From NCBI RefSeq assembly GCF_000092025.1, contig NC_003063.2, positions 1,555,501 to 1,619,500 on the forward strand: a DNA stretch of 64,000 nt. Reading direction: 5' to 3'. Shown piece after piece: positions 4,043 through 19,974 of the stretch (position 1 is the stretch's first letter; the number at the start of each line of letters is the position of its first letter). A program made the position numbers and the translations under genes. The DNA comes from Agrobacterium fabrum str. C58. GTDB lineage: Bacteria > Pseudomonadota > Alphaproteobacteria > Rhizobiales > Rhizobiaceae. The notes beneath the pieces were generated by a model. It saw nothing but the letters and a program-made list of their open reading frames with translations. It ran no database searches and was not told the origin of the DNA.

Positions 4043-5230
4043 TCAGAAAAACGCCTGAATGCCCGTCTGCGCCCGGCCGAGGATCAGCGCGTGCACGTCA
4101 TGCGTGCCCTCATAGGTATTCACCGTTTCAAGATTCTGGGCATGGCGCATGACGTGATATTCGATCTGAATGCCATTGCCGCCATGCATGTCGCGGGCCT
4201 GGCGGGCGATATCCAGCGCCTTGCCGCAATTGTTGCGTTTGACGATGGAGATCATTTCCGGCGCCATCTTATGTTCGTCCATCAGCCGGCCGACGCGCAG
4301 CGATGCCTGAAGGCCGAGCGCGATTTCGGTCTGCATGTCGGCGAGCTTCTTCTGGTAAAGCTGCGTGCCGGCGAGCGGCTTGCCGAACTGTTTGCGATCG
4401 AGGCCATATTGGCGGGAACGGAACCAGCAATCTTCCGCAGCCCCCATCACGCCCCAGGAAATGCCGTAACGGGCGCGGTTAAGGCAGCCGAACGGGCCTT
4501 TCAGTCCGGAAACATTCGGAAGCAATGCATCTTCGCCCACTTCCACGCCATCCATGACGATTTCGCCTGTAATGGAGGCGCGCAGCGAAAGCTTGCCGCC
4601 GATCTTGGGGGCGGAAAGACCTTTCATGCCCTTTTCCAGCACGAAACCACGGATCTCATTGTCATGCGCTTCCGATTTCGCCCAGACGACGAAAACATCG
4701 GCGATCGGCGCGTTGGAAATCCACATTTTCGAACCGCGCAGGCGATAACCGCCCTCGATCTTTTCGGCGCGGGTCTTCATGCCGCCGGGATCGGAGCCGG
4801 CATCCGGCTCGGTGAGGCCGAAACAGCCGATCAGTTCACCGGAAACGAGGCCCGGCAGGTATTTCTTCTTCTGTTCGTCCGAGCCGTAAGCGAAGATCGG
4901 GTGAATGACGAGCGAGGACTGCACGCTCATCATCGAGCGGTAACCACTGTCGATCCGCTCCACCTCGCGGGCGACGAGGCCGTAAGCCACATAGCTGGCA
5001 TTGGCTGCGCCGTATTCTTCCGGCAGGGTGACGCCGAGCAGGCCGGTGCGTCCCATCAGACGGAAGAGTTCCGGTTCGGTGGTTTCGGAAAGATAGGCTT
5101 CCGAGATGCGCGGCAGCAGTTCGGATTTGCCGAAGGCCTCGGCGCTGTCGCGGATCATTCGCTCGTCGTCGGTCAGTTGGTCTTCGAGCAGAAAAGGGTC
5201 CTGCCAATGAAATGCTGCGCGTTCGCTCAC
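4043..5230 (-). CDS. gcdH: Glutaryl-CoA dehydrogenase
   Basis: This 395-residue FAD enzyme of the acyl-CoA dehydrogenase family oxidises and decarboxylates glutaryl-CoA to crotonyl-CoA in lysine, tryptophan and glutarate breakdown. The middle holds the family block [20 protein letters not shown] and the substrate loop [19 protein letters not shown]. The C-terminal motif [17 protein letters not shown] contains the catalytic Glu (residue 374); the whole string is characteristic of GCDH rather than short-chain enzymes. Length is normal. It is divergent from a LysR gene 96 bp away, a layout seen for gcdH with a dedicated regulator in other proteobacteria. A perfect hairpin terminator follows. Confidence 0.93.
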
Positions 5231-5309
5231 TGTATGCCTCCGGATTTGCTGGCCGGATTATTCTTATCCCAGCCGTCGCGCACAAGCCATGTTTACTCAT
5301 TTTTGCATT

Positions 5310-5325
5310 ACCTATAGTAATAGGT
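5310..5325. promoter_or_regulatory. Palindrome in the gcdH/LysR divergent region
   Basis: The sequence ACCTAT-AGTA-ATAGGT has perfect 6-bp arms and ends one base before the LysR-gene ATG at 5327, where a ribosome site would lie. It could be a LysR-family binding site for autoregulation and gcdH control. Confidence 0.45.
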
Positions 5326-5326
5326 C

Positions 5327-6247
5327 ATGACGTCTCTCAGCCGTAAACTCCTGCCCTCCACCAGTGCGCTTGCCGCCTTTGATTCCGTTGCCCGGCTTGG
5401 CAGTTTTTCGGCGGCCGCCGATGAGCTTGCCTTGACGCAAGGGGCGATCAGCCGTCAGGTTATGTCACTGGAAGAACAGCTTGGCGTGCGCCTGTTCGAG
5501 CGCGGCGCGCGCGGGGTGTCGCTGACGACCGAGGGTAGTGCTTATGCAAAATCGATCGCGGCGGCGCTTGGCGAGATACGCTCCGCCTCGCTGCAGATCA
5601 TGACCAAAACGCATGGCAATACGCTGAATCTTGCCATGCTGCCCACTTTCGGCACCCGCTGGCTTCTGCCGCGCATCCCGGATTTCGTGGCAAACCATCC
5701 GGAAATCACCATCAATTTCGCCACCCGTATCGGCCAATTCGATTTTGAGCGTGAGCAGCTGGATATGGCGATCCATATCGGCCAGGCCGACTGGCCGGGG
5801 GCGGAAAGCACCTTTCTCATGCATGAAATGGTCGCGCCGGTTTGCAGCCCGCAATTCCTCAGCGCCCACCCGGTCGAAAAGGGCGAGGATATCGCTGCCC
5901 TGCCATTGCTGCATATGGCCTCGCGGCCGGGAGCCTGGGGCCACTGGTTCGAAAGCCTTGGCCTGTCGCTCGCTTTGCCGCAGGGCATGCGCTTCGAGCA
6001 ATTCTCCAGCGTGGCGCAGGCCTGCATCGCCGGGCTTGGCGTGGCGCTGATGCCGCTGTTCCTGATCGACAACGAGCTGAAATCGAAGCAACTGGTGAAA
6101 GCCTTCGATCATCAGGCGAGAAGCCCCAGTTCCTATTATGCGGTGGCGCCGCTTTCGCGTGCCAATCACGCCCCGGTCGTGCTGTTTCGGGATTGGCTGG
6201 TGCGGCAGGTGGAGGCTTATCGCGCGGCCGGCACCCAGGGCTTGTAA
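5327..6247 (+). CDS. LysR-family regulator (GcvA-like), probable gcdH regulator
   Basis: The 306-residue product has an N-terminal winged helix-turn-helix (AAFDSVARLGSFSAAADELA, then QGAISRQVMSLEEQLGVRLF). A periplasmic-binding-like effector domain begins near residue 95. The effector domain resembles the GcvA/AmpR branch, with the segment CIAGLGVALMPLFLIDNEL. The gene is divergent from glutaryl-CoA dehydrogenase, so it most likely controls glutaryl-CoA or lysine breakdown; this is inferred from position. No canonical ribosome site is present, because the 16-bp palindrome occupies the place just before the ATG. Confidence 0.88.
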   Translation: MTSLSRKLLPSTSALAAFDSVARLGSFSAAADELALTQGAISRQVMSLEEQLGVRLFERGARGVSLTTEGSAYAKSIAAALGEIRSASLQIMTKTHGNTLNLAMLPTFGTRWLLPRIPDFVANHPEITINFATRIGQFDFEREQLDMAIHIGQADWPGAESTFLMHEMVAPVCSPQFLSAHPVEKGEDIAALPLLHMASRPGAWGHWFESLGLSLALPQGMRFEQFSSVAQACIAGLGVALMPLFLIDNELKSKQLVKAFDHQARSPSSYYAVAPLSRANHAPVVLFRDWLVRQVEAYRAAGTQGL

Positions 6248-6345
6248 AAATAATCGCTCTTTTTTCGGGCATTTAACCCTTGTGCCCAGCTTTTCGCCGC
6301 ATTTCGCCGGCGAAGGACTCGACAGCGGCGCGCGCCTCGCTTATC

Positions 6346-6365
6346 CTGATTAAACGTTTAATCAG
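6346..6365. promoter_or_regulatory. LacI-type operator of the purine operon
   Basis: CTGATTAAACGTTTAATCAG is a perfect 20-bp palindrome with the central CG step and AAACGTTT core typical of LacI/GalR operators. It lies 16 bp before the start codon of a LacI-family gene that heads a seven-gene operon, so autoregulation and control of the operon are likely. Confidence 0.75.
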
Positions 6366-6381
6366 CCTTTCCGGACCATCC

Positions 6382-7443
6382 ATGGCGTCGTCACGGCCTG
6401 CCACCAATCTGAGCGCGATAGCAGCGGCACTCGGCGTGTCGGTGGCAACGGTGTCCAATGCGCTCTCCGGCAAGGGCCGTGTTTCGCCCGATCTGGTGGA
6501 GCGCATTCGCAAGACGGCGAGTGAACTGGGTTATGTGCCGAGTTCGGCGGGCAGGGCGTTGCGCACCGGCAGATCAGGGGTTCTGGGGCTCGTCCTGCCT
6601 GATATCGCCAACCCTCTTTTCCCACAGATCGCACAGGCCATTGAAAAAGCCGCCGTCTCTGCCGGTTATGGCGTGCTGATTGCCGATGCGCGCGGCGAGA
6701 TCGCCATGCAGACGGATGCCATCAACCGGCTGATCGAGCGCGGAGTGGACGGCATGATCATCGTTCCCCGCCGCGGCACGCGCATCTCCGGCGTCGATTG
6801 CCCTGTCGCGATCATCGACAGCCCTTCCACGCCCGGAAATACCGTCGCCGCCGACCATTGGGATGGCGGCCGGCAGGTGGGCGACTATCTCGCAAGCCTT
6901 GGCCACCGCAAGGTGGTGCTGGTGGGCAAGAACAGGGATTCCAACGTGCAGAACGACCGTCTCGGCGGCATTCGCGATGGTCTCGGCAAGGCCTGTGTGA
7001 CCCGGACGCTCTGGATCGACAGCATCGAAGAGGCTGATGGTGCCGGTTGCCGGCTGGGGCTTGCCGATCTGGTGGCGGATGGTTTCACCGCCTTTGCCGC
7101 CATTTCCGACCTGCATGCGCTGCGGGCGCTCACCGAATTGCAGCGCGAGGGCATCGAGGTGCCGGAAGAGGCAAGCGTCACCGGTTTTGACGATCTCATC
7201 TTTTCCGCCGTGGTCACCCCGCCGCTCACGACCATGCGCATGGATATGGGCCGCATCGCCGATCTGGCCGTCGGGGCGCTGCTGCGCGCCATCGACAGCG
7301 CCGGTGACAATGGCGTCGCCATCGATGTGACGGCGGAAATCTCGAAAGTACCGATGGCGCTGATCATGCGCGGTTCCACCGGCAAGACAAAGCATGATGC
7401 GATTGAAGCCAAAAAAACGACAGCAGGAGAACTCACACCATGA
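6382..7443 (+). CDS. LacI-family transcriptional repressor
   Basis: The 353-residue product has the LacI helix-turn-helix and hinge at the N terminus (LSAIAAALGVSVATVSNALSG, then RVSPDLVERI). The sugar-binding-like core follows (LGLVLPDIANPLFPQIAQAIE and SVTGFDDLIFSAVVTPPLTTM). The ATG at 6382 was chosen because an upstream in-frame start would run through the 20-bp palindrome and place extra residues before the HTH. The stop overlaps the next gene in ATGA, so it is the first gene of the operon. Neighbours suggest a purine or nucleoside effector, like PurR rather than a sugar repressor, but this is inference. The C-terminal tail of about 20 residues (KTKHDAIEAKKTTAGELTP) is extra to the fold. 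Confidence 0.9.
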   Translation: MASSRPATNLSAIAAALGVSVATVSNALSGKGRVSPDLVERIRKTASELGYVPSSAGRALRTGRSGVLGLVLPDIANPLFPQIAQAIEKAAVSAGYGVLIADARGEIAMQTDAINRLIERGVDGMIIVPRRGTRISGVDCPVAIIDSPSTPGNTVAADHWDGGRQVGDYLASLGHRKVVLVGKNRDSNVQNDRLGGIRDGLGKACVTRTLWIDSIEEADGAGCRLGLADLVADGFTAFAAISDLHALRALTELQREGIEVPEEASVTGFDDLIFSAVVTPPLTTMRMDMGRIADLAVGALLRAIDSAGDNGVAIDVTAEISKVPMALIMRGSTGKTKHDAIEAKKTTAGELTP

Positions 7444-8462
7444 AAAAAATCATTCTTGCATCGGGCACCGCCCTGATGCTGACGATGGGAGCGGCGCAGG
7501 CTGAGGACAAGACGCTGACGATTTCCGTCTACGCCTTTGCGCAGGATGAATTCAAGGAACTGGTCTATACGCCGTTTGAAGCCAAATGCGGCTGCAAGCT
7601 CGTGGTCGAAACTGGCAACAGCGTCGAGCGTCTTGCCAAGATGGAAGCCAACAAGGCCAATCCGGTGGTCGATCTCGCCATCGTTTCCATGGCCGATGCG
7701 CTTTCCGCCACCCGCAAGGACCTGATCCAGAAGATCGATGCGTCCAAGGTCCCGAACATCGAAAACCTCTACGACATCGCCAAGGACCCGAATGGTGACG
7801 GCATGAGCGTCGGCGTCAATTTCTACGCAACGTCCATCGTCTACCGCACCGACAAGATGAAGATCGACAGCTGGGCCGATCTCCTGAAGGACGGCATTGT
7901 CGATCACGTCGCCTTCCCGAATGTCACCACAAATCAGGGCCCGCCGGCGCTTTACATGCTCGGCAAGGCGATTGGCAAGGATACGCCTGATCTTGCCGGC
8001 GCCATCGCGGCCGTGGGTGAGAAGAAGGACGATATCGTCACCTTCTACGTCAAGTCATCGCAGCTGGTGCAACTGATGCAGCAGGAAGAAATCTGGGCCG
8101 CGCCCATCGGCCGCTTCTCCTGGGCGCCTTTCACCAAGCTCGATCTGCCGCTCGCCTGGGCAACGCCCAAGGAAGGCCAGACCGGCGGCATGAACGTGCT
8201 CGTCGTGCCGAAGGGCGGAAAGAACGAGGAGCTTGCGCTGCAATTCATGGATTTCTGGCTTTCGACCGACGTTCAGAAGGCACTGGCTGAAAAGCTGGTG
8301 GACAGCCCGACCAATAAGGAGGTCAAGGTGTCCGACGAGGTGGCGAACAACATCACCTATGGTGACGAGACCGCCCGTAGCCTGCAGCTCATTCCGTCCG
8401 ACGTGACGCTCGATAACCGCGACAAGTGGCTGTCGGAGTGGAATTCCAAGGTCGGCCAGTAA
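7440..8462 (+). CDS. ABC importer substrate-binding protein, PotD/AfuA-like
   Basis: The 340-residue product carries a Sec signal peptide (about 21 residues, ending AQA-ED). The mature part is a type II binding fold of the spermidine/putrescine/iron/thiamine cluster (ISVYAFAQDEFKELVY near the start, NFYATSIVYRTDKM in the middle). The ATG lies inside the LacI-gene stop (ATGA). The mature N-terminal region includes a paired Cys (KCGCKLV). Downstream nucleoside hydrolase and adenine deaminase suggest a purine, nucleoside or purine-like ligand; the fold alone would allow polyamine, thiamine or iron. Confidence 0.87.
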   Translation: MKKIILASGTALMLTMGAAQAEDKTLTISVYAFAQDEFKELVYTPFEAKCGCKLVVETGNSVERLAKMEANKANPVVDLAIVSMADALSATRKDLIQKIDASKVPNIENLYDIAKDPNGDGMSVGVNFYATSIVYRTDKMKIDSWADLLKDGIVDHVAFPNVTTNQGPPALYMLGKAIGKDTPDLAGAIAAVGEKKDDIVTFYVKSSQLVQLMQQEEIWAAPIGRFSWAPFTKLDLPLAWATPKEGQTGGMNVLVVPKGGKNEELALQFMDFWLSTDVQKALAEKLVDSPTNKEVKVSDEVANNITYGDETARSLQLIPSDVTLDNRDKWLSEWNSKVGQ

Positions 8463-8477
8463 GTCCTTTCACCGTTT

Positions 8478-8555
8478 GGAATGGGGCATCGAAACGTCCG
8501 CGAGGGCGGCTCCATTCCGGGAAAAGCGGTTCGGTCGTCCCCTGACCGCTTTTCC
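8478..8555 (+). other. Two stem-loops between binding protein and permease genes
   Basis: The first pair is GGAATGG (8478-8484) with CCATTCC (8512-8518). The second is an 11-bp stem GGAAAAGCGGT (8520-8530) with its complement (8545-8555), followed by ACCCTCTTTTTCG. Such hairpins after binding-protein genes protect the upstream mRNA or cause partial termination, so that binding protein exceeds permease. Confidence 0.6.
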
Positions 8556-8628
8556 ACCCTCTTTTTCGCAGGCCGGTCCTTCCGGCTGCCATAACAACCG
8601 GCCTTGGGGCCGTTCAGGGAATAAACCG

Positions 8629-9456
8629 ATGTTTCAGAACCGGGCCGAAGCGCTGGCGCTTGCATTGCCCGCCGCAATTTTCGCGGCGGCGGTCTTTCTT
8701 GTGCCGGTCTTCATGCTTCTGTCGGAGGGCTTCCGCACCACTGACGGCTGGACATTGTCGGCCTATGCCGCCTTCTTTTCCGATCCGCTGAACCAGACGG
8801 TTTTCCTGCGTACGCTCAAACTCGGCGCGCTTGTTACCGTCGTCTCGGCCGTGGTGGGTTATGCGGCGGCGTTTGCCATCATCAACTTATCGCCGGGCAA
8901 GAAAGGCCATGTGGTCAATCTCGTCGTGCTGCCGCTGATGATCTCGCCGGTTGCCCGTACCTATGCATGGATCGTCATTCTCGGCAGAACCGGCATCGTC
9001 AATCAGGCGCTGCAGGCGGTGGGCCTGAGCGACGCGCCGATCCGCATCCTGTTTTCCGAAACGGCCGTTTTCATCGGCCTTCTGCAACTGTTCCTGCCGC
9101 TGATGATCATCTCGCTCATCAGCGCGCTGGAAAACATGCCGAAGGACACGATCGCCGCTGCCCGCGTGCTCGGCGCAAACTGGTTTCAGGTGTTCTGGAA
9201 GGTCATCCTGCCGCTCACCAAGGAAGGGCTGGTCGTCGGCGGCACGCTGGTCTTCACCGGTTCGCTGACGGCCTATATCACGCCAGCCATTCTCGGTGGT
9301 TCGAAGGTGCTGATGCTGGAAACCCTGCTTTACCAGCAGGTCACGGTCTCCAATAATTTCGTCGCCGCCAGTGTCATCGCCTTCATTCTGATCGTCATGA
9401 GCTTTGCCGCCAATATCCTCTTGAAGCGCATTGCCACCGCAAGGAACAAGAAATGA
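8629..9456 (+). CDS. ABC importer permease 1 (PotB-like)
   Basis: The 275-residue product is an inner-membrane permease of the PotB/CysU branch with about six hydrophobic segments. The first is ALALALPAAIFAAAVFLVPV. The EAA loop that contacts the ATPase is at ENMPKDTIAAARVLGANWFQVFWKVILP. The ATG at 8629 follows CAGGGAATAAACCG. It overlaps the next permease gene by ATGA. It belongs to the importer whose binding protein and ATPase flank it. Confidence 0.9.
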   Translation: MFQNRAEALALALPAAIFAAAVFLVPVFMLLSEGFRTTDGWTLSAYAAFFSDPLNQTVFLRTLKLGALVTVVSAVVGYAAAFAIINLSPGKKGHVVNLVVLPLMISPVARTYAWIVILGRTGIVNQALQAVGLSDAPIRILFSETAVFIGLLQLFLPLMIISLISALENMPKDTIAAARVLGANWFQVFWKVILPLTKEGLVVGGTLVFTGSLTAYITPAILGGSKVLMLETLLYQQVTVSNNFVAASVIAFILIVMSFAANILLKRIATARNKK

Positions 9457-10232
9457 CCCGGCAGCTCTTCATTCCGCTCACGCTCCTTCTTGTCGTCGGG
9501 TTCCTCATCGGGCCGTTCCTCATCATCGTTGCGGCCTCATTTTCGGCCGGCGATACACTCGCCTTTCCGCCGCAGGGCTTTTCGCTGAAGTGGATCGCCA
9601 AGGTCTTCACCGTCGAAAGCTTCCGTGAGAGTTTTGCGATGTCGATGTTCCTTGCCATCGGCGGCACGTTCACGGCGCTCATCCTCGGCATTCCCGCTTC
9701 CTACGCCATGTCGCGCTACAAGCTGCCTTTTGCCGAAACCGTGCGCACCATCGTTTCCGCGCCGATCATCGTGCCCGGCATCATCGTCGGCCTTGCGCTG
9801 CTGCGCTATTTCGTCGTGCCCTTCGGCATCGGCATCACGCTTGCCCTGTTTCTAGCTCACACTGCGCTCATCCTGCCTTATGCGGTGCGGGTGGTATCGG
9901 CCAGCCTCAACAACCTGCGCTCCGATATAGAGGAGGCGGCGGTGCTGCTTGGCTCGTCGCGGCTTGGTGCCTTTTTCCGGGTAGTGCTACCGAATATACG
10001 CGGTGGCATCCTGTCGGCTTTCATTCTCGGTTTCGTGACGAGTTTCAACCAGGTGCCGGTATCGCTGTTCCTCTCCGGTCCCGGCGTGCGCACATTGCCC
10101 ATCGATATGCTGGGTTACATGGAAATCGTCTTTGATCCTTCCGTTGCAGCTCTTTCCTCGCTGCTCGCCTTCCTTTCCATCGGCATCGTCTTTATGGCCG
10201 AACGTTTCCTGGGGTTCTCCCGTTATGTCTGA
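9453..10232 (+). CDS. ABC importer permease 2 (PotC-like)
   Basis: The 259-residue product is the second membrane subunit, PotC-like, with five to six hydrophobic segments. The EAA loop is near NNLRSDIEEAAVLLGSSRLGAFFRVVLP. The start lies within the ATGA overlap with permease 1, and the end overlaps the ATPase gene by 8 bp, so the subunits are translationally coupled. Confidence 0.9.
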   Translation: MTRQLFIPLTLLLVVGFLIGPFLIIVAASFSAGDTLAFPPQGFSLKWIAKVFTVESFRESFAMSMFLAIGGTFTALILGIPASYAMSRYKLPFAETVRTIVSAPIIVPGIIVGLALLRYFVVPFGIGITLALFLAHTALILPYAVRVVSASLNNLRSDIEEAAVLLGSSRLGAFFRVVLPNIRGGILSAFILGFVTSFNQVPVSLFLSGPGVRTLPIDMLGYMEIVFDPSVAALSSLLAFLSIGIVFMAERFLGFSRYV

Positions 10233-11250
10233 CGCAAATTATCTTTCGCTCAACAAAGTCTCGCTCGCTTATGGCAACAGCATCGCCGTCAAGGATCTCG
10301 ATCTCGATATCCGCAAGGGCGAGCTTCTCGCGCTGCTTGGGCCTTCCGGCTGCGGCAAGACAACGACGATGCGCGCCATTGCCGGGCTGATGCCGGTGGC
10401 AAGTGGGCGTATTGATCTCGATGGCGCCGATATTACGCGCGTCGCGGCCAACAAGCGTGCCGTCGGGCTGGTGTTCCAGTCCTATGCGCTATTCCCCCAT
10501 CTGACTGTTTACGAAAACGTCGCCTTCGGCCTGAAACTCAAGGGCATGAGCGGCAAGACGCTTGACGACAAGGTCGCCTCCGGCCTGAAATCGGTGGGCT
10601 TGTCCAATTTCGCCTCCCGCAAGCCGGCGGAACTTTCCGGCGGCCAGCAGCAGCGCGTGGCGCTGGCGCGCTCCATGGTCATGGAGCCAAAGGTGCTGCT
10701 GCTCGACGAGCCGCTCTCCAACCTCGATGCCCGCCTGCGCCTTGAAATGCGCACCGAATTGCAGCGCGTGCAGAAGGAAACCGGCGTGACGATGATCTTC
10801 GTCACCCATGACCAGATCGAGGCTTTGGCGCTGGCCGACCGTATTGTCGTCATGAAGGGGGGCAAGATTGAGCAGATCGGCACGCCTGAGGAAATTTATA
10901 ACGCGCCGGTTTCGTCCTTCGTGGCTGACTTCGTCGGCTTCGAAAACATCTTCGCGCTGGAAGACGGCGCGTTGAAAACCGCAAACGGCAAGACATCACT
11001 TACCGGACCAGTCCCTTCAGCATCTGGACTGGCCTGGCGGCCGCGCATGGTAACCCTTGGTTCAGGTCCTTTCCAGGGAACCGTGCGCGGCACATCCTTT
11101 GCAGGCAACAGCCGCGAATATCTGCTGGACACGCCGCTTGGCGCCATCAAGGCAGAAACCGACGCCGCCCTTGCTGCGCACGCCATCGGTGATACGCTCG
11201 CCTTCGATCTGCCGGTCGAAAAAGCGGCAAGCCTCAAGGTGTTCAACTGA
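10225..11250 (+). CDS. ABC importer ATP-binding subunit (PotA-like)
   Basis: The 341-residue ATPase has Walker A GPSGCGKTT (near residues 37-45), Q-loop FQSYALFPHLTVYENV, signature LSGGQQQRVALARSM, Walker [13 protein letters not shown] and the H-loop VTHDQIEAL. The C-terminal part is a TOBE-like OB domain as in PotA/CysA. The start at 10225 overlaps the permease stop. It powers the importer encoded by the three preceding genes and is followed after 2 bp by the nucleoside hydrolase gene. Confidence 0.92.
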   Translation: MSDANYLSLNKVSLAYGNSIAVKDLDLDIRKGELLALLGPSGCGKTTTMRAIAGLMPVASGRIDLDGADITRVAANKRAVGLVFQSYALFPHLTVYENVAFGLKLKGMSGKTLDDKVASGLKSVGLSNFASRKPAELSGGQQQRVALARSMVMEPKVLLLDEPLSNLDARLRLEMRTELQRVQKETGVTMIFVTHDQIEALALADRIVVMKGGKIEQIGTPEEIYNAPVSSFVADFVGFENIFALEDGALKTANGKTSLTGPVPSASGLAWRPRMVTLGSGPFQGTVRGTSFAGNSREYLLDTPLGAIKAETDAALAAHAIGDTLAFDLPVEKAASLKVFN

Positions 11251-11252
11251 CG

Positions 11253-12173
11253 ATGGGCGTGTGGATCGATACCGATATGGGCTTTGACGATATCGCCGCC
11301 ATCATGGTGGTGCAATCGGCAGGCCTTGCCATCGACGGCATCTCTTTGGTGTTCGGCAATGCCACGCTGGATGCGGTCTGCCGCAATGCCGCAGGCGCCG
11401 TAGCAAGCTTCGGCTGGTCGATGCCGATCCATCAGGGCCGCGCCATGCCCGTCCTCGGCGCGCTCGAAACCGCGCAGTCCATCCTCGGTGAAAGCGGCAT
11501 TCCGACCGCCGGCCAAAGCCTGCCGGATGCGCCGGCTCTGCCAAAAAGCGATGCCTTTACCGCTCTCTGCAACTGGCTGGAGGGTGAAGGCGAAAAGCGC
11601 ATCCTCGCGCTCGGCCCGCTCACCAATATCGCCGCACTTTGTCTCGCTCGGCCCGATCTTGCCGCCAGAATTTCCGACCTCACCTGGATGGGGGGCGGGC
11701 TTACCAGTGGCAACCACACGGCATCGGCCGAATTCAACGCCTTCGCCGATCCCGAGGCACTGGCCATCGTGCTCGCCCATGGCCTGCCGCTGCGCATGGT
11801 CGATCTCGATGCTTGCCGCAAGGTCATGGCCTCGCCCGCCGATGTCCTGCCGATCCGCACCGCCGACGGCAGGAATGCGGGCCTTATTGCCGATCTGTTT
11901 GATGGTTTCATCGGCATCGCCACCAGTCGCGGTAGGGCTGCCATGGCGCTTTACGATCCCGTCGCCGCAGTCGGCTTTACCTCCGATCATCTCGGCTGGC
12001 AGCAGGCGCGCATCGATGTCGAACTCCATGCCTCGCTGACGCGGGGAAGAACCGTGGTCGAGACACGCGCGGAGAAGGTGACAGACTTTAACGCCCAGTT
12101 TGCCGTGACCGTTGATGCTGGAGCCGCAAAGGCCGCCATATTGGAAGCATTGCGCCGGGAGGCTGCCCGATGA
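11253..12173 (+). CDS. Nucleoside hydrolase (IUNH family)
   Basis: The 306-residue enzyme hydrolyses the N-glycosidic bond of ribonucleosides to base plus ribose. The N terminus has the calcium-binding signature DTDMGFDD (residues 6-13). The middle has LALGPLTNIAALCLARPDL and MGGG, followed by AEFNAFADPEAL. Near the end is YDPVAAV; many family members have HDP here, so Tyr in place of the His may reflect a different substrate preference. It begins 2 bp after the ATPase gene and overlaps the adenine deaminase gene in ATGA. Together they would take a nucleoside such as adenosine to free base and then deaminate it. Confidence 0.9.
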   Translation: MGVWIDTDMGFDDIAAIMVVQSAGLAIDGISLVFGNATLDAVCRNAAGAVASFGWSMPIHQGRAMPVLGALETAQSILGESGIPTAGQSLPDAPALPKSDAFTALCNWLEGEGEKRILALGPLTNIAALCLARPDLAARISDLTWMGGGLTSGNHTASAEFNAFADPEALAIVLAHGLPLRMVDLDACRKVMASPADVLPIRTADGRNAGLIADLFDGFIGIATSRGRAAMALYDPVAAVGFTSDHLGWQQARIDVELHASLTRGRTVVETRAEKVTDFNAQFAVTVDAGAAKAAILEALRREAAR

Positions 12174-13963
12174 CCGCGCAAATCCGCCTGGCGGAGCCTG
12201 CCGATCTCAACGACGACACCCTGCGCGCCCGTGCGGTTGCCGCCGCGCGTGGTGATCAGCGTTTTGATGTTCTCATCACCGGCGGAACATTGGTGGATGT
12301 GGTGACGGGCGAGCTTCGCCCTGCCGATATCGGCATTGTCGGAGCGCTGATCGCCAGCGTTCACGAACCGGCAAGCCGCAGGGACGCCGCGCAGGTGATA
12401 GACGCGGGCGGGGCCTATGTCTCGCCGGGGCTGATCGACACGCATATGCACATCGAAAGCTCGATGATCACGCCGGCCGCCTATGCGGCAGCGGTGGTTG
12501 CCCGCGGCGTCACCACCATCGTCTGGGACCCGCATGAATTCGGCAACGTGCATGGTGTCGATGGCGTGCGCTGGGCGGCGAAGGCGATCGAAAACCTGCC
12601 ATTGCGCGCCATTCTGCTCGCCCCCTCCTGCGTGCCGTCAGCACCGGGGCTAGAGCGCGGCGGTGCGGATTTCGATGCCGCCATTCTCGCCGATCTCCTC
12701 TCCTGGCCGGAAATTGGCGGCATTGCGGAAATCATGAACATGCGCGGTGTCATCGAGCGCGATCCGCGCATGAGCGGCATCGTTCAGGCCGGGCTCGCCG
12801 CGGAAAAGCTGGTCTGCGGCCATGCGCGGGGCCTGAAGAATGCCGATCTCAACGCCTTCATGGCGGCGGGCGTTTCTTCCGATCACGAACTGGTCTCGGG
12901 CGAAGACCTCATGGCGAAGCTCAGGGCAGGGCTGACGATCGAGCTGCGCGGTTCGCATGATCATCTGCTGCCGGAATTCGTGGCGGCGCTGAATACGCTC
13001 GGCCACCTGCCGCAGACGGTGACGCTCTGCACCGATGATGTCTTCCCTGACGACCTGTTGCAGGGCGGCGGGCTGGATGATGTGGTGCGCCGTCTTGTGC
13101 GTTATGGCCTCAAGCCCGAATGGGCGCTACGCGCCGCTACGCTGAATGCCGCGCAAAGGCTTGGCCGTTCCGATCTCGGCCTCATAGCCGCAGGCCGCCG
13201 CGCTGATATCGTCGTTTTCGAGGATCTGAACGGCTTTTCGGCCCGTCATGTGCTCGCAAGCGGCCGGGCCGTTGCAGAAGGCGGCCGCATGCTTGTCGAC
13301 ATTCCCACCTGCGATACGACCGTACTCAAAGGCTCGATGAAGCTTCCGCTACGCATGGCCAATGATTTCCTGGTGAAATCTCAGGGTGCGAAGGTACGCC
13401 TCGCCACCATTGACCGCCCGCGGTTCACGCAATGGGGTGAGACGGAAGCGGACGTGAAAGACGGTTTCGTGGTTCCGCCGGAGGGTGCGACGATGATCTC
13501 CGTCACCCACCGCCACGGTATGGCCGAGCCCACCACAAAAACCGGCTTCCTCACCGGCTGGGGACGCTGGAACGGCGCCTTCGCCACCACCGTCTCGCAT
13601 GACAGCCATAACCTCACCGTCTTCGGTGGCAACGCAGGGGACATGGCGCTCGCCGCCAATGCGGTGATCGGCACCGGCGGCGGCATGGCCGTTGCCTCCG
13701 AAGGCAAGGTCACCGCGATCCTCCCGCTGCCGCTCTCCGGCCTCGTATCCGATGCGCCGCTCGAAGAGGTGGCGCGGGCTTTCGAGGACTTGCGCGAAGC
13801 CGTCGGCAAGGTGGTGGAATGGCAGCCGCCCTATCTCGTCTTCAAGGCCTGCTTCGGCGCCACGCTCGCCTGCAATATCGGCCCGCATCAGACGGATATG
13901 GGCATTGCCGATGTGTTGACGGGGAAGGTGATGGAAAGCCCGGTCATCGAGGTTTTGGGATAA
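12170..13963 (+). CDS. ade: Adenine deaminase
   Basis: The 597-residue metal-dependent amidohydrolase converts adenine to hypoxanthine and ammonia. It shows the beta-strand-1 metal motif GLIDTHMHIESSM (near residue 90), then VWDPHEFGNVHG, the His motif CGHARGLKNADLNAF, SSDHELVSGEDL, and the C-terminal Ade domain (SHDSHNLTVFGGNAGDMALA). Length matches bacterial AdeC/Ade (about 570-600). It is the last gene of the LacI-headed operon, fused by ATGA to the nucleoside hydrolase gene. A weak hairpin follows. Confidence 0.93.
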   Translation: MTAQIRLAEPADLNDDTLRARAVAAARGDQRFDVLITGGTLVDVVTGELRPADIGIVGALIASVHEPASRRDAAQVIDAGGAYVSPGLIDTHMHIESSMITPAAYAAAVVARGVTTIVWDPHEFGNVHGVDGVRWAAKAIENLPLRAILLAPSCVPSAPGLERGGADFDAAILADLLSWPEIGGIAEIMNMRGVIERDPRMSGIVQAGLAAEKLVCGHARGLKNADLNAFMAAGVSSDHELVSGEDLMAKLRAGLTIELRGSHDHLLPEFVAALNTLGHLPQTVTLCTDDVFPDDLLQGGGLDDVVRRLVRYGLKPEWALRAATLNAAQRLGRSDLGLIAAGRRADIVVFEDLNGFSARHVLASGRAVAEGGRMLVDIPTCDTTVLKGSMKLPLRMANDFLVKSQGAKVRLATIDRPRFTQWGETEADVKDGFVVPPEGATMISVTHRHGMAEPTTKTGFLTGWGRWNGAFATTVSHDSHNLTVFGGNAGDMALAANAVIGTGGGMAVASEGKVTAILPLPLSGLVSDAPLEEVARAFEDLREAVGKVVEWQPPYLVFKACFGATLACNIGPHQTDMGIADVLTGKVMESPVIEVLG

Positions 13964-13974
13964 TAACGTCAGGA

Positions 13975-14008
13975 CCGGCTGCCGCGATGTCGTCGTCGTG
14001 GCAGCCGG
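13975..14008 (+). terminator. Hairpin after ade
   Basis: CCGGCTGCC (13975-13983) pairs with GGCAGCCGG (14000-14008) across a 16-base loop. No T-run follows, so it is either a weak terminator or an mRNA 3'-end stabiliser for the convergent genes. Confidence 0.4.
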
Positions 14009-14014
14009 GGCCTG

Positions 14015-14716
14015 TCAGTTCACATTGTGAAGCTGCGCTTCGCCATTGTGGAGAAAGCAGGCTTTGGTGAAGAGACCCAAATCCAGCAGGTTGGGCAGGC
14101 GGATATCGCGCATATCGGGAAGCCGCTTGTTTTCAGGATCAAACGAGCGGTCAACCTGCGAGATGAATGCGAAAATGACGCCGGTCTTTTGTGCGAATTC
14201 CCCAAGGGCTGTCACCTGTTGCGACAGGTCCGGCTTGTGCCGCTGCTGATCGAGTATCTGCAGATAATCGATCACGGCGAAGGTGCCGGGTCTGGCTGGT
14301 GACAAATGGCGGATGATGTAATCCGCGCATATCTCGTCCGATGTCACGATCTCGGTTTCTCTTTTTCCGGCCGCATGTTTTTCGATACGCTTTCTTGCCT
14401 GTTGCTCCGTCATTTCGAGCGTGAGCAAGACGGACTGACGCCCGTCTTCGGCTGCCGCGCGCAAAAGTTCAAACCCAAGCGCTGTCTTGCCTTGGCCTGG
14501 GCGGCCGGCAAGCAGAAGCATGTCGCCATGCACGATGCGGGAGAACAGGTTTTCGGATAAGGAGCCCGCCGCAACGTGAGCGGACAGCAGGCTCCACCGT
14601 GCGAATCCTTCCTCGCGCGCGATCTGGTCCAGTGCTTCGTGCAGGGGAATGGCATTGTTTCGGACCATGAGCTTGGCCCGCCGTTTTAATTGAAAAATCG
14701 GAGTAGAAAGTTTCAT
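14015..14716 (-). CDS. Stand-alone DnaB C-terminal-like (SF4) ATPase
   Basis: The 233-residue product has a RecA-type core like the C-terminal half of DnaB. Walker A is GRPGQGKT (71-78), the H1a Glu is in LLTLEMT (about 101), Walker B is FAVIDYLQIL (146-154), and FISQVDRSF near residue 190 corresponds to the DnaB H4 Gln block. The DnaB N-terminal collar is absent. A short basic region (FQLKRRAKLMVRNN) and a helical segment ending ARWSLLSAH stand in its place. The ATG at 14716 follows AGAGG. No phage or plasmid gene is nearby. Function is unknown; it may act in DNA replication or repair, or be a relic of a mobile replication module. Confidence 0.72.
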   Translation of the reverse strand: MKLSTPIFQLKRRAKLMVRNNAIPLHEALDQIAREEGFARWSLLSAHVAAGSLSENLFSRIVHGDMLLLAGRPGQGKTALGFELLRAAAEDGRQSVLLTLEMTEQQARKRIEKHAAGKRETEIVTSDEICADYIIRHLSPARPGTFAVIDYLQILDQQRHKPDLSQQVTALGEFAQKTGVIFAFISQVDRSFDPENKRLPDMRDIRLPNLLDLGLFTKACFLHNGEAQLHNVN

Positions 14717-14932
14717 CAAAAGACCTCTATTTCGGGTCTGAAACGCAATCCCTCCTTATGCGAATGCCCGAACAGACGGTTCGATGATGATATTACCCCG
14801 CATGTCGAATGCTTCCCCGAAGGGAGGGGGGAGGCGTGGGTTGCGCCTGTGCGCAGAAATTACCGCGCCCGATGATTCGCCACAAGCGTCCGAAATATCG
14901 ACGGTCAAAAAACGGCAGGCAGTAAGATGGGT

Positions 14933-16105
14933 CTACTCCGCCGCCAGTTCCTGCTCCACCAATGTCGCCCAGAACGCCACGCCCGGCACGATGGCCGCAT
15001 CGTTGAAGTCGTAGGAGGTGTTGTGGTGCAGCGCGCCATCCACCGCCGGGCCGTTGCCGAGCCAGACATAGCAGCCGGGGGCTTCGCCGGCGAAGAAAGC
15101 GAAGTCGTCACCGGCGGTCGAGGGCGGGAAGGCGGTGCGGGCCTTGGTGCCGAACACTGTTTTTGCGGCGCGCAGCGCCCTCTTCGTCGCGTCCGCCTCA
15201 TTGATGACGGGCGGAATGCGGCGGATGAAGTCGTACTGCGCCTCGATGCCGAACATCGCCGCCGTGCCCTTCGCCAGCCGGCCGATTTCCGCCTCCAGCT
15301 GGTCGCGCACATCTGCCGCATAAGCACGCGCCGTGCCGCCGATTTCGACGAGATCGGGAATGACGTTGAGCGCCTTAGGATCACCTGCCTGCACCGAACA
15401 GGCGCTGACCACCGCGGGTTGCAGCGGGTCGATGACTCGGCCGACGATCGTCTGCAGCGAGGCGAGGAAGGTGCCCGTCGCCGTTATGGGGTCACGGCCG
15501 AGATGCGGCTTGGCGCCATGGGTGCCGATGCCCTTGAAGGTGACGCGCCAGCTATCGGAAGAGGCAAGCTGGGGGCCTTCCACCACGGCCATTTCGTCAA
15601 GCCCAAGCCCCGGCATATTGTGAAGGCCATAGACCGCATCGCAGGGAAACAGATCGAACAGCCCGTCTTCCACCATTTTTTTCGCGCCACCCCGGCCTTC
15701 TTCGGCCGGCTGGAAGATGAAATGCACGGTGCCGGAAAAGTCGCGGGTCTTGGCGAGGTAACGCGCGGCACCCAGCAGCATCGCGGTGTGGCCGTCATGA
15801 CCGCAGGCATGCATCTTGCCGGGAAATTTCGATTTATAGGGCCGCTCGGGCATCTCAGGCATGGCCAGCGCATCCATGTCGGCCCGCAGGCCGATGCTGC
15901 GGGTGCCGTTACCCACCTGCAACGTGCCCACAACGCCGGTACCGCCGAGACCGCGATGCACCTTCAGCCCGGCGCGCTCGAGCAGATCGGCGACGATGGC
16001 GCTGGTTCTTTCCTCTTCGAAACCCAGTTCCGGATGCGCGTGCAGATCATGACGAAGCTCCGTCAGGAATGGCAGGTCCTCACCGATCCGGTCCAGCAGT
16101 CTCAT
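14933..16105 (-). CDS. M20D-family amidohydrolase (hippurate hydrolase-like)
   Basis: The 390-residue metalloenzyme removes an acyl group from an N-acyl amino acid or similar amide. It shows LRHDLHAHPELGFEE at the N terminus, metal ligands in LRADMDALAMPE and MHACGHDGHTAMLLGAA, and FQPAEEGRGGAKKM with the general-base Glu. The C-terminal ligand motif is ATAGDDFAFFAGEAPG-like. The ATG at 16105 was chosen because AAGGA precedes it; a possible ATG at 16144 lacks a ribosome site. It is divergent from the phosphoribosyltransferase gene. A second family member lies at 32380. Confidence 0.9.
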   Translation of the reverse strand: MRLLDRIGEDLPFLTELRHDLHAHPELGFEEERTSAIVADLLERAGLKVHRGLGGTGVVGTLQVGNGTRSIGLRADMDALAMPEMPERPYKSKFPGKMHACGHDGHTAMLLGAARYLAKTRDFSGTVHFIFQPAEEGRGGAKKMVEDGLFDLFPCDAVYGLHNMPGLGLDEMAVVEGPQLASSDSWRVTFKGIGTHGAKPHLGRDPITATGTFLASLQTIVGRVIDPLQPAVVSACSVQAGDPKALNVIPDLVEIGGTARAYAADVRDQLEAEIGRLAKGTAAMFGIEAQYDFIRRIPPVINEADATKRALRAAKTVFGTKARTAFPPSTAGDDFAFFAGEAPGCYVWLGNGPAVDGALHHNTSYDFNDAAIVPGVAFWATLVEQELAAE

Positions 16106-16317
16106 GGGAAGCTTGTCCTTGAATATGGGGAAAACCCGCGTCATAGGTGGGTTTGTCCGAATGCCTGTTGCTTTTTTCTCTTCTAGCGGAAAAAGCCAAT
16201 GAAATGAACCCGCCGCATGTGTGCGGTTGCTGAAATGCCTAATATGTCGAACGGGGTTGGCGAGGCTGAAAAAAACCGCATCCGTCTTGCGCCATTCCGC
16301 TCCTGAAAGGAAAACCG

Positions 16318-17025
16318 ATGCCGTCATCCGCATCGCCCGCCGCCCAGTCTCCCGCTGCGCCGCACGAGTTCTGGCAGAACATTCTTCCGCCCGGCACCTT
16401 TGCGACGGCAGGTCCGCATTCCAGCTTCTTTCCGGCGGAACTGGATGACAACAGGCAGATATGCCTGCCCATCCGGCCGCTTGCGGATGGCGAACATGCG
16501 CTTGCCTCACTCATCGTCAATCAGGCCTCATTCGAGGTGCTGGAGGCGCTGGCGGCCGATCTTGCCGCCAAGCTCGCGCCGTTCAGCCCTGACGTCGTGA
16601 TTGGCCTGCCGACGCTGGGGCTGACGCTTGCCGCCGCCGTTGCCCGCCATCTCGGCCATTCCCGTTACGTGCCGCTCGGCACCTCGCGGAAATTCTGGTA
16701 TTTGGAGGAACTGTCGGTGCCGATGTCTTCCATCACCACCAAGCAGGAAAAGCGGCTTTACATCGATCCGCGCATGTTGCCGCTCCTCGAGGGCAAACGG
16801 GTGGCGCTGGTGGATGATGTCATCTCCAGCGGCAGTTCGATTATATCAGGTCTTTCGCTTCTCGCCTCATCCGGCATCAAGCCGGTGGCAATCGGCGCTG
16901 CCATGCTGCAATCGGATCGCTGGCGGGAAAAAATCGCCGCTTTCGGGTCGGAATGGCCGGAGCGGGTGAGGGGCGTTTTTGCCACGCCGCTGCTGACAAA
17001 AGCCGAAGGCGGCTGGCAGGCTTGA
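16318..17025 (+). CDS. Phosphoribosyltransferase-domain protein
   Basis: The 235-residue product carries the PRPP-binding signature VALVDDVISSGSS (residues 162-174) and a preceding hood and core region (VIGLPTLGLTLAAAVARHLG). The overall layout resembles adenine phosphoribosyltransferase or related orphan PRTases. The start follows AAAGGAAAACCG. Lying 2.4 kb from the adenine deaminase operon, it may salvage the base released there, but it is not in that operon and the substrate is not certain. An inverted repeat GGTGA-TAATT-TCACC lies 30 bp after the stop. Confidence 0.82.
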   Translation: MPSSASPAAQSPAAPHEFWQNILPPGTFATAGPHSSFFPAELDDNRQICLPIRPLADGEHALASLIVNQASFEVLEALAADLAAKLAPFSPDVVIGLPTLGLTLAAAVARHLGHSRYVPLGTSRKFWYLEELSVPMSSITTKQEKRLYIDPRMLPLLEGKRVALVDDVISSGSSIISGLSLLASSGIKPVAIGAAMLQSDRWREKIAAFGSEWPERVRGVFATPLLTKAEGGWQA

Positions 17026-17230
17026 CGTTGCGCAATTCCCGGCAAAAGGCAAGTGGTGATAATTTCACCGCTGCCTAATTTGCGTCTTGCGGAGCCGCGA
17101 GAGATCGTCCTAAGATCGTTTCCGACAGATTATAGCGGTCGGCAAAAAATGCGCCGGTTTGCTTTCGCGCGGTGTCATTCCGGCGTCTGCCCGCCCCCTT
17201 TGGTTTTGCCGCTTACTGGAATTTCTTGAC

Positions 17231-18286
17231 ATGCATGCAGTGTTCGACGGTCATAATGATGTGCTGCTTCGGTTGTGGCGCAACAGCAAGGCCGGTGCCG
17301 ATCCGGTGGCTGAATTCAAGAAAGGCACGCGCGAAGGCCATATCGATGGTCCGCGCGCCAGGGCAGGCGGTCTCGGTGGCGGCATCTGCGCTATCTATAT
17401 CCCATCAGGCGATCTGGTCCTGCAGGAACCGGACGAACAGGGCCATTACGACACGCCGCTCGCCGCGCCGCTGGAGCGCCAGCCTTCCCTCGATATCGCC
17501 ATGGAGAAAGCGGCGATTGCGCTGAGGCTCGATCGCGCCGGTGCCTGGCGGCTCTGCCGCTCCACGGCCGATATTCGCAAGGCCTTTGCCGAGGATATTT
17601 TCGCCGCCGTGCTGCACATGGAAGGCTGCGAGGCGATCGGTGCCGATCTTGACGCGCTGGAGGTGTTTTATGCCGCCGGCCTGCGCTCGCTCGGTCCGGT
17701 CTGGAGCCGGCACAATATTTTCGGCCATGGCGTTCCCTTCTCTTATCCCATGTCACCCGATACCGCGCCCGGTCTTACCGATGCCGGTTTCGCGCTGGTG
17801 AAGGAATGCAACCGGCTCGGCATTCTCATCGATCTCGCCCATATTACCGAAAAAGGCTTCTGGGATGTGGCAAAGACCACCAACCAGCCTTTGATCGCCA
17901 GCCATTCGAACGCACATGCGCTCACCCCCGTTGCCCGCAATCTCACCGACCGGCAGATGGATGCCATCAGGGAGAGCGGTGGGCTGGTGGGCCTCAACTA
18001 TGCCGTCACCATGCTCAGGCCCGATGGGCGTGACATTGCCGATACGCCGCTCTCCGACATGGTGCGCCATATCGACTACATGGTGGAACGCATGGGCATC
18101 GACTGCGTGGCGCTCGGATCGGATTTCGACGGCGCGACGGTACCTGTCGGCGTGGCCGATGCCAGCGGCAACCACAATCTGGTTGCGGCACTGAAATCGG
18201 CAGGCTACGGTGATGGAGAGCTTGCTAAAATCTGCCGGGAAAACTGGCTGCGTGTTTTGTCTCAGGCCTGGCACGAAGCGGCCTGA
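17231..18286 (+). CDS. Membrane-dipeptidase-type (M19) dipeptidase
   Basis: The 351-residue zinc enzyme of the renal dipeptidase family cleaves dipeptides, often with relaxed stereochemistry. Metal ligands are visible in FDGHNDVL (His8, Asp10), in the Glu of LHMEGCEAI and in the His residues of IASHSNAHAL. The end carries ALGSDFDGATVPVG. No signal peptide precedes the fold, so a cytosolic enzyme is likely. It lies 50 bp before the peptide-type importer genes on the same strand. The natural reading is uptake of a dipeptide followed by hydrolysis, with this gene probably the first of that operon. Confidence 0.9.
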   Translation: MHAVFDGHNDVLLRLWRNSKAGADPVAEFKKGTREGHIDGPRARAGGLGGGICAIYIPSGDLVLQEPDEQGHYDTPLAAPLERQPSLDIAMEKAAIALRLDRAGAWRLCRSTADIRKAFAEDIFAAVLHMEGCEAIGADLDALEVFYAAGLRSLGPVWSRHNIFGHGVPFSYPMSPDTAPGLTDAGFALVKECNRLGILIDLAHITEKGFWDVAKTTNQPLIASHSNAHALTPVARNLTDRQMDAIRESGGLVGLNYAVTMLRPDGRDIADTPLSDMVRHIDYMVERMGIDCVALGSDFDGATVPVGVADASGNHNLVAALKSAGYGDGELAKICRENWLRVLSQAWHEAA

Positions 18287-18336
18287 GAACAGTTTTAAGC
18301 GAACCAAATCAATCTTATAACAAAAGGGGAGATCCT

Positions 18337-19974
18337 ATGATCAAATCGCTCAACAAATCCATGCGGGTGCTTAGCACCAGCGCTGCCCTGTCGCTGATGA
18401 TGCTGTCGGCGCCGCACGCTTTCGCCGCCACGCCGGCCGACACTCTGGTCGAAGGTTTCGCCATCGATGACATCATCACGCTCGATCCGGGTGAGGCATT
18501 CGAACTGTCCGCCGCCGAAGTCACCGGTAACACCTACAGCAAGCTGGTCTCCATCGATCTCAACGACACGTCCAAGGTTATCGGCGATCTGGCCGAGAGC
18601 TGGACGACATCCGAGGATGGCCTGACATATACCTTCAAGCTGAAATCCGGCCTGAAATTCGCCTCCGGTAACCCGATCACCGCTGACGATGTGGCCTTCT
18701 CTTTCGAACGCGCCGTCAAGCTCGACAAGTCGCCGGCATTCCTGCTGACGCAGTTCGGCCTCAAGGGCGACAACGTCAATGAAAAAGCCAAGGCTGCGGA
18801 TGCAAACACCTTTGTGCTGACGGTCGACAAGCCTTACGCGCCGAGCTTCGTGCTGAACGTGCTGACGGCAACGGTCGCCGCCGTGGTGGACAAGAAGCTC
18901 ATCACCGAAAAGGCGAAGTCGGTTACGCCGAGCGCCGATTACAAATACGACACGGATTTCGGCAATGAATTCCTGAAGACCGGTTATGCCGGTTCCGGCC
19001 CCTACAAGATCCTTGGCTGGAAGGCCAACGAAGCGGTGATCCTCGAGGCCAACCCGAATTATTACGGCGAGAAGCCGAAGCTGAAGCGTGTCGTTTATCG
19101 CCACATGAAGGAAAGCTCCGGCCAGCGCCTGGCGCTTGAGAACGGCGATATCGACGTTGCCCGTAACCTCGAGCCCGGCGACATGGAAGCCGTTTCCAAG
19201 AAGGAAGGCCTTGCCGTCACGTCTGCGCCCAAGGGCACCGTTTATTACTTCAGCCTCAACCAGAAGAACGAGAACCTGAAGAAGCCGGAAGTCGTCGAAG
19301 CTCTGAAATATCTGGTCGATTATGACGCGATCGGCGCGACGATCATCAAGGGCATCGGTGAAGTTCACCAGACCTTCCTGCCGAAGGGCCAGCTCGGCGC
19401 GCTCGACGAGAACCCCTACAAGCTCGACGTTGCCAAGGCCAAGGAACTTCTCGCCAAGGCCGGCCTGAAGGACGGTTTCACCGTGACCATGGATGTGCGC
19501 AACACGCAGCCGGTGACCGGTATTGCCGAAAGCGTGCAGCAGACGCTGGCGCAGGCCGGCATCAAGCTGGAAATCATTCCCGGCGACGGCAAGCAGACCC
19601 TGACAAAATATCGCGCCCGCACGCATGATATCTATATCGGCCAGTGGGGCTCGGACTACTTCGACCCGAACTCGAATGCGGAAACCTTCACCATCAACTA
19701 CGACAATTCCGATGAAGGCAAGAACAAGACGCTCGCCTGGCGTAATGCCTGGGATGTTCCTGATCTGACCAAGGAAACCCAGTCGGCGCTGCTGGAAAAG
19801 GACACTGCCAAGCGTGCCGCCATCTATCAGAACCTGCAGAAGGAAGTTCTGGCGAAGGGTCCCTTCGTCATCATCTTCCAGCAGACGGAAGTTGCCGGTT
19901 ATTCCGCCAAGCTCAAGGGCCTGAAGCTCGGTCCGAGCTTTGACACCAACTACGTCTATACGATCTCCAAGTAA
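18337..19974 (+). CDS. Peptide-type ABC importer binding protein (DppA/OppA-like)
   Basis: The 545-residue product carries a signal peptide of about 30 residues ending AFA-ATP. The mature protein is an SBP family 5 (cluster C) protein, with the block DLAESWTTSEDGLTYTFKLK near the N terminus and GQWGSDYFDPNSNAET in the C-terminal half. It captures a di/oligopeptide or similar ligand in the periplasm. GGGGAG lies upstream of the ATG. It is followed by two permeases and two ATPases and preceded by the M19 dipeptidase gene. Confidence 0.92.
   Translation: MIKSLNKSMRVLSTSAALSLMMLSAPHAFAATPADTLVEGFAIDDIITLDPGEAFELSAAEVTGNTYSKLVSIDLNDTSKVIGDLAESWTTSEDGLTYTFKLKSGLKFASGNPITADDVAFSFERAVKLDKSPAFLLTQFGLKGDNVNEKAKAADANTFVLTVDKPYAPSFVLNVLTATVAAVVDKKLITEKAKSVTPSADYKYDTDFGNEFLKTGYAGSGPYKILGWKANEAVILEANPNYYGEKPKLKRVVYRHMKESSGQRLALENGDIDVARNLEPGDMEAVSKKEGLAVTSAPKGTVYYFSLNQKNENLKKPEVVEALKYLVDYDAIGATIIKGIGEVHQTFLPKGQLGALDENPYKLDVAKAKELLAKAGLKDGFTVTMDVRNTQPVTGIAESVQQTLAQAGIKLEIIPGDGKQTLTKYRARTHDIYIGQWGSDYFDPNSNAETFTINYDNSDEGKNKTLAWRNAWDVPDLTKETQSALLEKDTAKRAAIYQNLQKEVLAKGPFVIIFQQTEVAGYSAKLKGLKLGPSFDTNYVYTISK

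Follow-up and report, generated by a model that had tools for sequence, protein, structure and literature searches.

What does a PotABCD-type ATP-binding cassette (ABC) importer carry when its genes are packed together with those of a nucleoside hydrolase and an adenine deaminase? The question is raised by a locus of Agrobacterium fabrum str. C58 in a 64,000-nucleotide stretch of contig NC_003063.2 (positions 1,555,501 to 1,619,500; hereafter the window, whose own numbering is used throughout), where 6382-13963 is filled by seven plus-strand genes. These encode a LacI-family transcription regulator, a probable local repressor that is conserved as the first gene (6382..7443; PF00356, PF13377), a PotD-type solute-binding protein that is predicted to bind purine nucleosides (7440..8462; PF13416), a PotB-like permease (permease 1, 8629..9456; PF00528), a PotC-like permease (permease 2, 9453..10232; PF00528), a PotA-like ATPase (10225..11250; PF00005), a nucleoside hydrolase with no apparent signal peptide and a predicted preference for purines (11253..12173; PF01156), and adenine deaminase 2 (Atu4426, 12170..13963). 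Our analysis leads us to consider it likely that this is a locally regulated operon for the uptake and catabolism of purine nucleosides, most likely of adenosine and perhaps of others. In the proposed pathway, the periplasmic binding protein would capture the nucleoside, the PotBCA-like membrane complex would import it using ATP, the hydrolase would split it into adenine and ribose, the deaminase would convert adenine to hypoxanthine and ammonia, and a linked phosphoribosyltransferase would probably salvage the base. Adenosine is favored as the simplest compound for which both enzymes are required, as adenine needs no hydrolase and inosine no deaminase.

The gene order is directly established. 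ATGA overlaps join the LacI gene to the binding protein gene (at 7440), permease 1 to permease 2 (at 9453) and the hydrolase to the deaminase (at 12170), and the other junctions are an 8-bp overlap between permease 2 and the ATPase (at 10225), a 2-bp gap between the ATPase and the hydrolase, and a 166-bp gap between the binding protein and permease 1. An earlier sequence-only reading had described seven tightly packed genes over 6346..13963, and all seven were found, with four overlaps of 4 or 8 bases, one 2-base gap and one 166-base gap; its end coordinate stood and its start did not, since 6346 reads CTG and the LacI gene most likely begins at the ATG at 6382.

The conserved synteny search that the same reading had proposed was run on 122 non-duplicate orthologous loci (from the species-level collection, the best 80 of 385 encoding places were kept), and all seven genes occur in order in 115 of them, so that the arrangement is far beyond chance. 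Three of the seven exceptions (L058, L061 and L125) are stretches that are short or cut, and a fourth (L160) has no LacI gene. The binding protein is present in 37/37 genomes of the genus, 45/297 of the family, 5/385 of the class and 7/349 of the phylum, counts for which the thresholds differ, the class query was that of L066 and the C58 genome is included each time. The deaminase type, delimited at ≥56% identity with the next listed class at ≤40%, is present in 52/297 family genomes, and 44 of these are among the 45 with the binding protein; the single genome that has the binding protein and lacks such a deaminase (G061) carries the former on a 4.6-kb contig. As a separate observation, a contig titled Bacillus subtilis SK6B4 (L143) carries the rhizobial operon, and this record is probably mislabelled or contaminated.

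The coupling reaches beyond the orthologues. Paralogous binding proteins (30-36% identity), sampled in 11 genomes, have a gene of the nucleoside hydrolase or adenine deaminase type in the fetched stretch in 10 cases (eight and seven, respectively), whereas such a gene lies near none of 21 other PotD-type binding proteins (24-30% identity) that served as controls, these being fewer independent controls than 21 suggests because they form only about eight tree groups. In the corresponding tree, 43 purine-linked binding proteins stand apart from the 21 controls with a support of 1.0 (L204, L205 and L207 among the 43 had been chosen for their deaminase and are not counted as evidence), and the orthologue clade comprises 29 proteins with a support of 0.69. 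An importer occurring regularly without both purine enzymes had been named beforehand as the pattern that would speak against the coupling; it was looked for, and the importer was instead found with them in 115/122 loci, 44/45 genomes (deaminase type) and 10/11 paralogues (either type). The expectation that linkage to IunH and Ade predicts uptake of a purine nucleoside or purine-like compound is thus borne out as far as a deeply conserved coupling goes, with binding of the cargo following as a prediction. Among the paralogue loci, L171 combines the importer with a hydrolase, an M20 gene, a PRK06031 phosphoribosyltransferase and an amidohydrolase that reaches no NCBIfam cut-off and is closest to TRZ/ATZ hydrolases and 5'-deoxyadenosine deaminase. 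A distant paralogous importer in L067 (L067:8941-17448) is accompanied, by eye, by an N-carbamoyl amino-acid hydrolase, a cupin-type regulator and a D-amino-acid racemase or aldolase, besides an adenine-deaminase-like amidohydrolase with 32% identity to Atu4426, and likely carries a different cargo.

Database sources label the subunits "spermidine/putrescine transport system", and one competing explanation is a true polyamine (or thiamine or iron) importer, with the two purine enzymes gained otherwise, for example to recycle adenine from methylthioadenosine. The best profiles matched were indeed PotD for the binding protein and PotB and PotC for the permeases, with PotA a close second for the ATPase, but all four subunits fall far under the NCBIfam Pot equivalog cut-offs (58 of 582, 148 of 348, 111 of 326 and 338 of 482 bits), and no gene for methylthioadenosine or polyamine metabolism lies within the operon. 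In PotD, according to the accessible part of the source, Glu36, Glu171 and Asp257 contact the polyamine amines (PMC4096761); in a remote alignment, at roughly 23% identity, these acids are replaced by Gln35, Asn165 and Asn252 of the binding protein, and Asn252 is invariant in 40/40 aligned binding proteins. With the Pot cut-offs missed and the amine-binding acids replaced, we placed polyamine cargo low and regard this explanation as highly improbable. Moreover, the view that the family serves mainly polyamines, iron or thiamine proved too narrow, as the structure titles of solved relatives name opines, gamma-aminobutyric acid (GABA), sugar phosphates and others as cargo, and a new cargo for a PotD-type importer is less surprising because its solved relatives already have varied ones. 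The Pfam matches of the binding protein are only SBP_bac_8, SBP_bac_1, SBP_bac_6 and SBP_bac_11, with no match to PF02608 of the BMP/PnrA importers, and its AlphaFold model (mean predicted local distance difference test score 92), used for fold comparison alone, has 4EDP as its best fold match. Two features of the protein may be recorded here: a Cys-x-Cys motif (C50 and C52; window 7587-7595) is conserved to at least 90% among the 40 aligned proteins, including paralogues near 30% identity, and at residues 126-127 (window 7815-7820) the Agrobacterium loci that were checked have Val-Asn, rarely Ala-Asn, where most other relatives have Tyr-Thr, a lineage-specific difference by which the hinge or pocket could be adjusted.

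The two enzymes were then considered in turn. The hydrolase matches PF01156 with 215.3 bits against a curated cut-off of 34.2 and retains the calcium- and ribose-binding motifs, its DTDMGFDD fitting the DxDxxxDD calcium motif of these hydrolases. At the positions of His82 and His241, presumably the catalytic residues of the group I hydrolase 1MAS from Crithidia, the 15 operon-type rows all have Leu and Tyr/Phe, respectively, and three of three outgroup hydrolases have His at both. Purine-specific inosine-adenosine-guanosine hydrolases have an aromatic residue in place of His241, and because the change recalls these enzymes, a purine preference of the operon hydrolase is plausible on the strength of its residues. 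Genome-wide there are three PF01156 and two PF13382 matches.

The deaminase shares 100% identity, across 597 residues, with adenine deaminase 2 of known structure (PDB 3NQB, 3T81 and 3T8L), and it scores below the cut-off of the NCBIfam "ade" equivalog (364.6 of 472.5). In the available text of one paper, the 3NQB protein is Atu4426 of A. tumefaciens, its structure is dated 2011, and it deaminates unmethylated adenine, unlike its relative YerA (PMC12133300). One homologue (G335:C4:128265-130040) has a single in-frame TGA, so either the gene is broken or the sequence contains an error.

These deaminase relatives bear on another explanation, namely that a purine is imported as the free base or in a modified form, with adenine, methylthioadenosine and N6-substituted adenosines (for example a cytokinin riboside) as candidates, and that the hydrolase serves internal nucleoside turnover. 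Of the two enzyme types, only an adenine-deaminase-like gene was found in the paralogue loci L176 and L067, and in Clostridium perfringens adeC (CPE1268) and potD (CPE1269), which have adjacent locus tags, appear together in an expression-change table and are listed without a hydrolase in the portion of the paper at hand (PMC6958937). The adjacency of adeC and potD also counts in favor of the preferred purine-nucleoside reading. The deaminase superfamily, too, includes members acting on N6-methyladenine, such as YerA. Against this, the hydrolase is part of the operon in nearly all orthologues, Atu4426 acts on the unmethylated base, and E. coli AdeC is inactive on N6-methyladenine, as stated in the accessible section of a further source (PMC13296781). 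The hosts, moreover, include genera such as Haematobacter and Pannonibacter and are not exclusively plant-associated. A cytokinin or N6-methyl cargo, raised by the YerA-type relatives, was set aside on the partial description of Atu4426 with unmethylated adenine, and the explanation as a whole is in our judgement unlikely.

Local regulation of the predicted nucleoside operon is indicated by an 18-bp perfect palindrome, TGATTAAACGTTTAATCA, a strandless candidate LacI-family operator at 6347..6364, 17 bp upstream of the LacI ATG. A LacI helix-turn-helix domain, a sensor domain and a central-CG palindrome ahead of the gene's own operon, which together characterize a LacI-family local regulator, were all found. 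The footprint of the operator is directly established: a TGATTAAWCGWTTAATCA-like palindrome (core TTAANCGNTTAA, allowing a single mismatch, ahead of the LacI gene) occurs in 116 of the 120 orthologous loci, out of 122, that have enough upstream sequence, although these are not 116 independent events, since many loci are close relatives. The whole 2.19 Mb of the 122 loci hold 126 TTAANCGNTTAA-type cores with at most one mismatch. In the 5.67-Mb genome the exact 12-bp core occurs once and its reversed control not at all; with up to two mismatches the known operator is the only site, and weaker genomic operators lie beyond judgement because the reversed control pattern likewise matches once per strand. 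L064 has another perfect palindrome, TGGTAGCACGTGCTACCA, upstream of LacI, which recurs in imperfect form in L062, and the LacI proteins of both are much more diverged (38-39%), as expected if the regulator and its site change together; these sequences suggest an operator switch. L114 and L129 showed no operator in the upstream stretch examined. We infer that the LacI protein would bind the 6347-6364 palindrome and would probably be released by a compound of the pathway. SM_b21272, which we take to be the LacI gene of the S. meliloti operon copy, is mentioned as a LacI regulator in the literature text that was accessible. In the available part of their LacI survey, Ravcheev et al. 2014 name the groups AdeR, HpxR and UriR for nucleoside utilization (PMC4052901), so that an earlier in-silico prediction of this regulon, as the AdeR group, may be in print.

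The 166-nt spacer between the binding protein and permease 1 (8463..8628, plus strand), in which hairpins had been claimed from the sequence, does fold better than its own shuffles (z −2.9). Among 22 relatives, one corresponding gap (24 nt) was too short, and the 21 that were folded have a mean z of −2.8, with z below −1.5 in 16. No Rfam family reached its gathering score within 5000-18500. The spacer may serve to have more binding protein than permease produced.

Several observations weigh against the nucleoside-uptake reading, beside the small number of independent control groups and the remote alignment on which the pocket argument rests. Activity of the hydrolase is not assured, because both classical histidines are absent. 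Within the orthologous loci, L108 has no deaminase between the hydrolase and the phosphoribosyltransferase gene, the deaminase of L155 is inverted, and in L163 the 2.2 kb that remain up to the contig end contain no hydrolase. L156 and L157 have the importer with a divergent hydrolase and no deaminase nearby, and L173 is the sole one of the 11 paralogues with neither enzyme. Eight family genomes have the deaminase type without the orthologous importer (L204-L211), of which L206 lacks the four importer genes but retains LacI, the operator and both enzymes, and L211, outside the pattern, has its deaminase beside an oligopeptide-type importer, with no hydrolase. The parts of the operon are therefore separable, as L206, L211, L156/L157 and L173 each miss some. 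The remaining genomes of this set have an importer nearby and speak for the nucleoside-uptake reading. In L204 and L205 a paralogous importer and an M20 gene immediately precede the hydrolase-deaminase pair, and in L207 a paralogous importer is nearby on the opposite strand. In L208-L210, from one genus, a BMP/PnrA-type importer lies about 2 kb from the hydrolase (by Pfam, PF02608 and two PF02653 in L208, with 96% identity of the L209 and L210 genes to the L208 binding protein), a linkage that is suggestive only, because this importer is on the other strand and another gene, by eye a methyltransferase, intervenes.

The surroundings of the operon bear on the fate of the base and on one further explanation. 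A phosphoribosyltransferase of the PRK06031 type (16318..17025, plus strand; NF004689 above cut-off), which the sequence-only reading had proposed to complete salvage, is a probable salvage partner: its linkage was upheld, with such a gene near the operon in 80/122 loci at computed gaps of 8 to 3317 bp from the deaminase, and its substrate would be the released base. In C58 it probably lies, judged by position, outside the operon transcript. An M20 aminoacylase-like gene (14933-16510, minus strand) stands between deaminase and phosphoribosyltransferase in C58 and S. meliloti alike, and on S. meliloti pSymB the operon is followed by the M20 aminoacylase, the phosphoribosyltransferase and an NCS2 permease. 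M20-type peptidase/aminoacylase genes recur beside the paralogous importers of L170, L171, L204 and L205 as well, so a functional link is possible; this would fit an amide-linked conjugate and thereby a larger or different purine-containing cargo (nucleotide, dinucleotide or conjugate) that is trimmed before both enzymes act. The M20 gene is, however, on the opposite strand in the C58 window and in S. meliloti, and the operon contains no phosphatase, and we hold such a cargo to be quite improbable. Just upstream of the operon lies a GcvA-like LysR regulator (5327-6247), which scores just under the GcvA cut-off and adjoins the operon in most Agrobacterium loci, being more distant in Neorhizobium loci. 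Just past the operon is a short open reading frame (14015-14719, minus strand) with, by eye, a DnaB-type ATPase domain.

Purine-nucleoside uptake remains the favored account. Literature searches by locus tag found papers that name the deaminase. In the sources listed, which were available in part, neither a PotD-type nucleoside importer nor a matching fitness screen was described, although absence from print is not claimed. In minimal-medium proteomes of Rhizobium etli, an ATPase labelled "putative spermidine/putrescine" (RHE_RS17470) is listed, as is an adenine deaminase (RHE_RS17480) whose tag is two away (PMC9611204), and from these tags the two would be operon orthologues. The novel part would be the use of a PotD-type importer for a purine nucleoside, as varied PotD-type cargoes and the nucleoside-use LacI group AdeR were already known. 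A broader proposal, to which we give slightly less than an even chance, is that ABC import of purine nucleosides has arisen a second time, on the PotD scaffold, as a class of its own beside BMP/PnrA. Such a class would be found across Alphaproteobacteria and as far away as Clostridia (4EDP and the adeC-potD pair), and the paralogous clade would take up related purines. Should the cargo prove to be adenosine, the names of hundreds of genes would be wrong (one species-level collection has 385 encoding places), bacteria of soil and plants would have a defined way of drawing nitrogen and carbon from extracellular nucleosides, a deaminase with a structure known since 2011 would acquire a physiological role, and a PotD-fold receptor for a neutral purine would offer a helpful contrast to those who engineer binding proteins and sensors.

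Comparison with known systems places the operon more precisely. The E. coli PotABCD spermidine/putrescine importer shares the binding-protein fold and the subunit plan of two permeases, one ATPase and one binding protein, but the operon importer differs from it by amides in place of the amine-binding acids, by the purine enzymes and LacI regulator in the same operon, and by scores that stay well short of the Pot cut-offs. BMP/PnrA (Nup, Rns) ABC importers carry purine nucleosides and so match the predicted cargo, yet they have their own binding-protein family (PF02608) and permease family (PF02653), unrelated to those of the operon, and are functional analogues only. The Agrobacterium proteins AgtB, MotA, AttC and Atu4243 (opines, GABA) belong to the same fold class and genus and illustrate how many small organic compounds this fold can accommodate, although they share only about 14-22% identity with the operon binding protein and their catabolic partners are not known to be purine enzymes. 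The C. perfringens ABC binding protein 4EDP, the best fold match, has no named cargo and may correspond to the potD next to adeC. For the adenine deaminase Atu4426 (3NQB) the protein is identical, and what is added here is its operon context.

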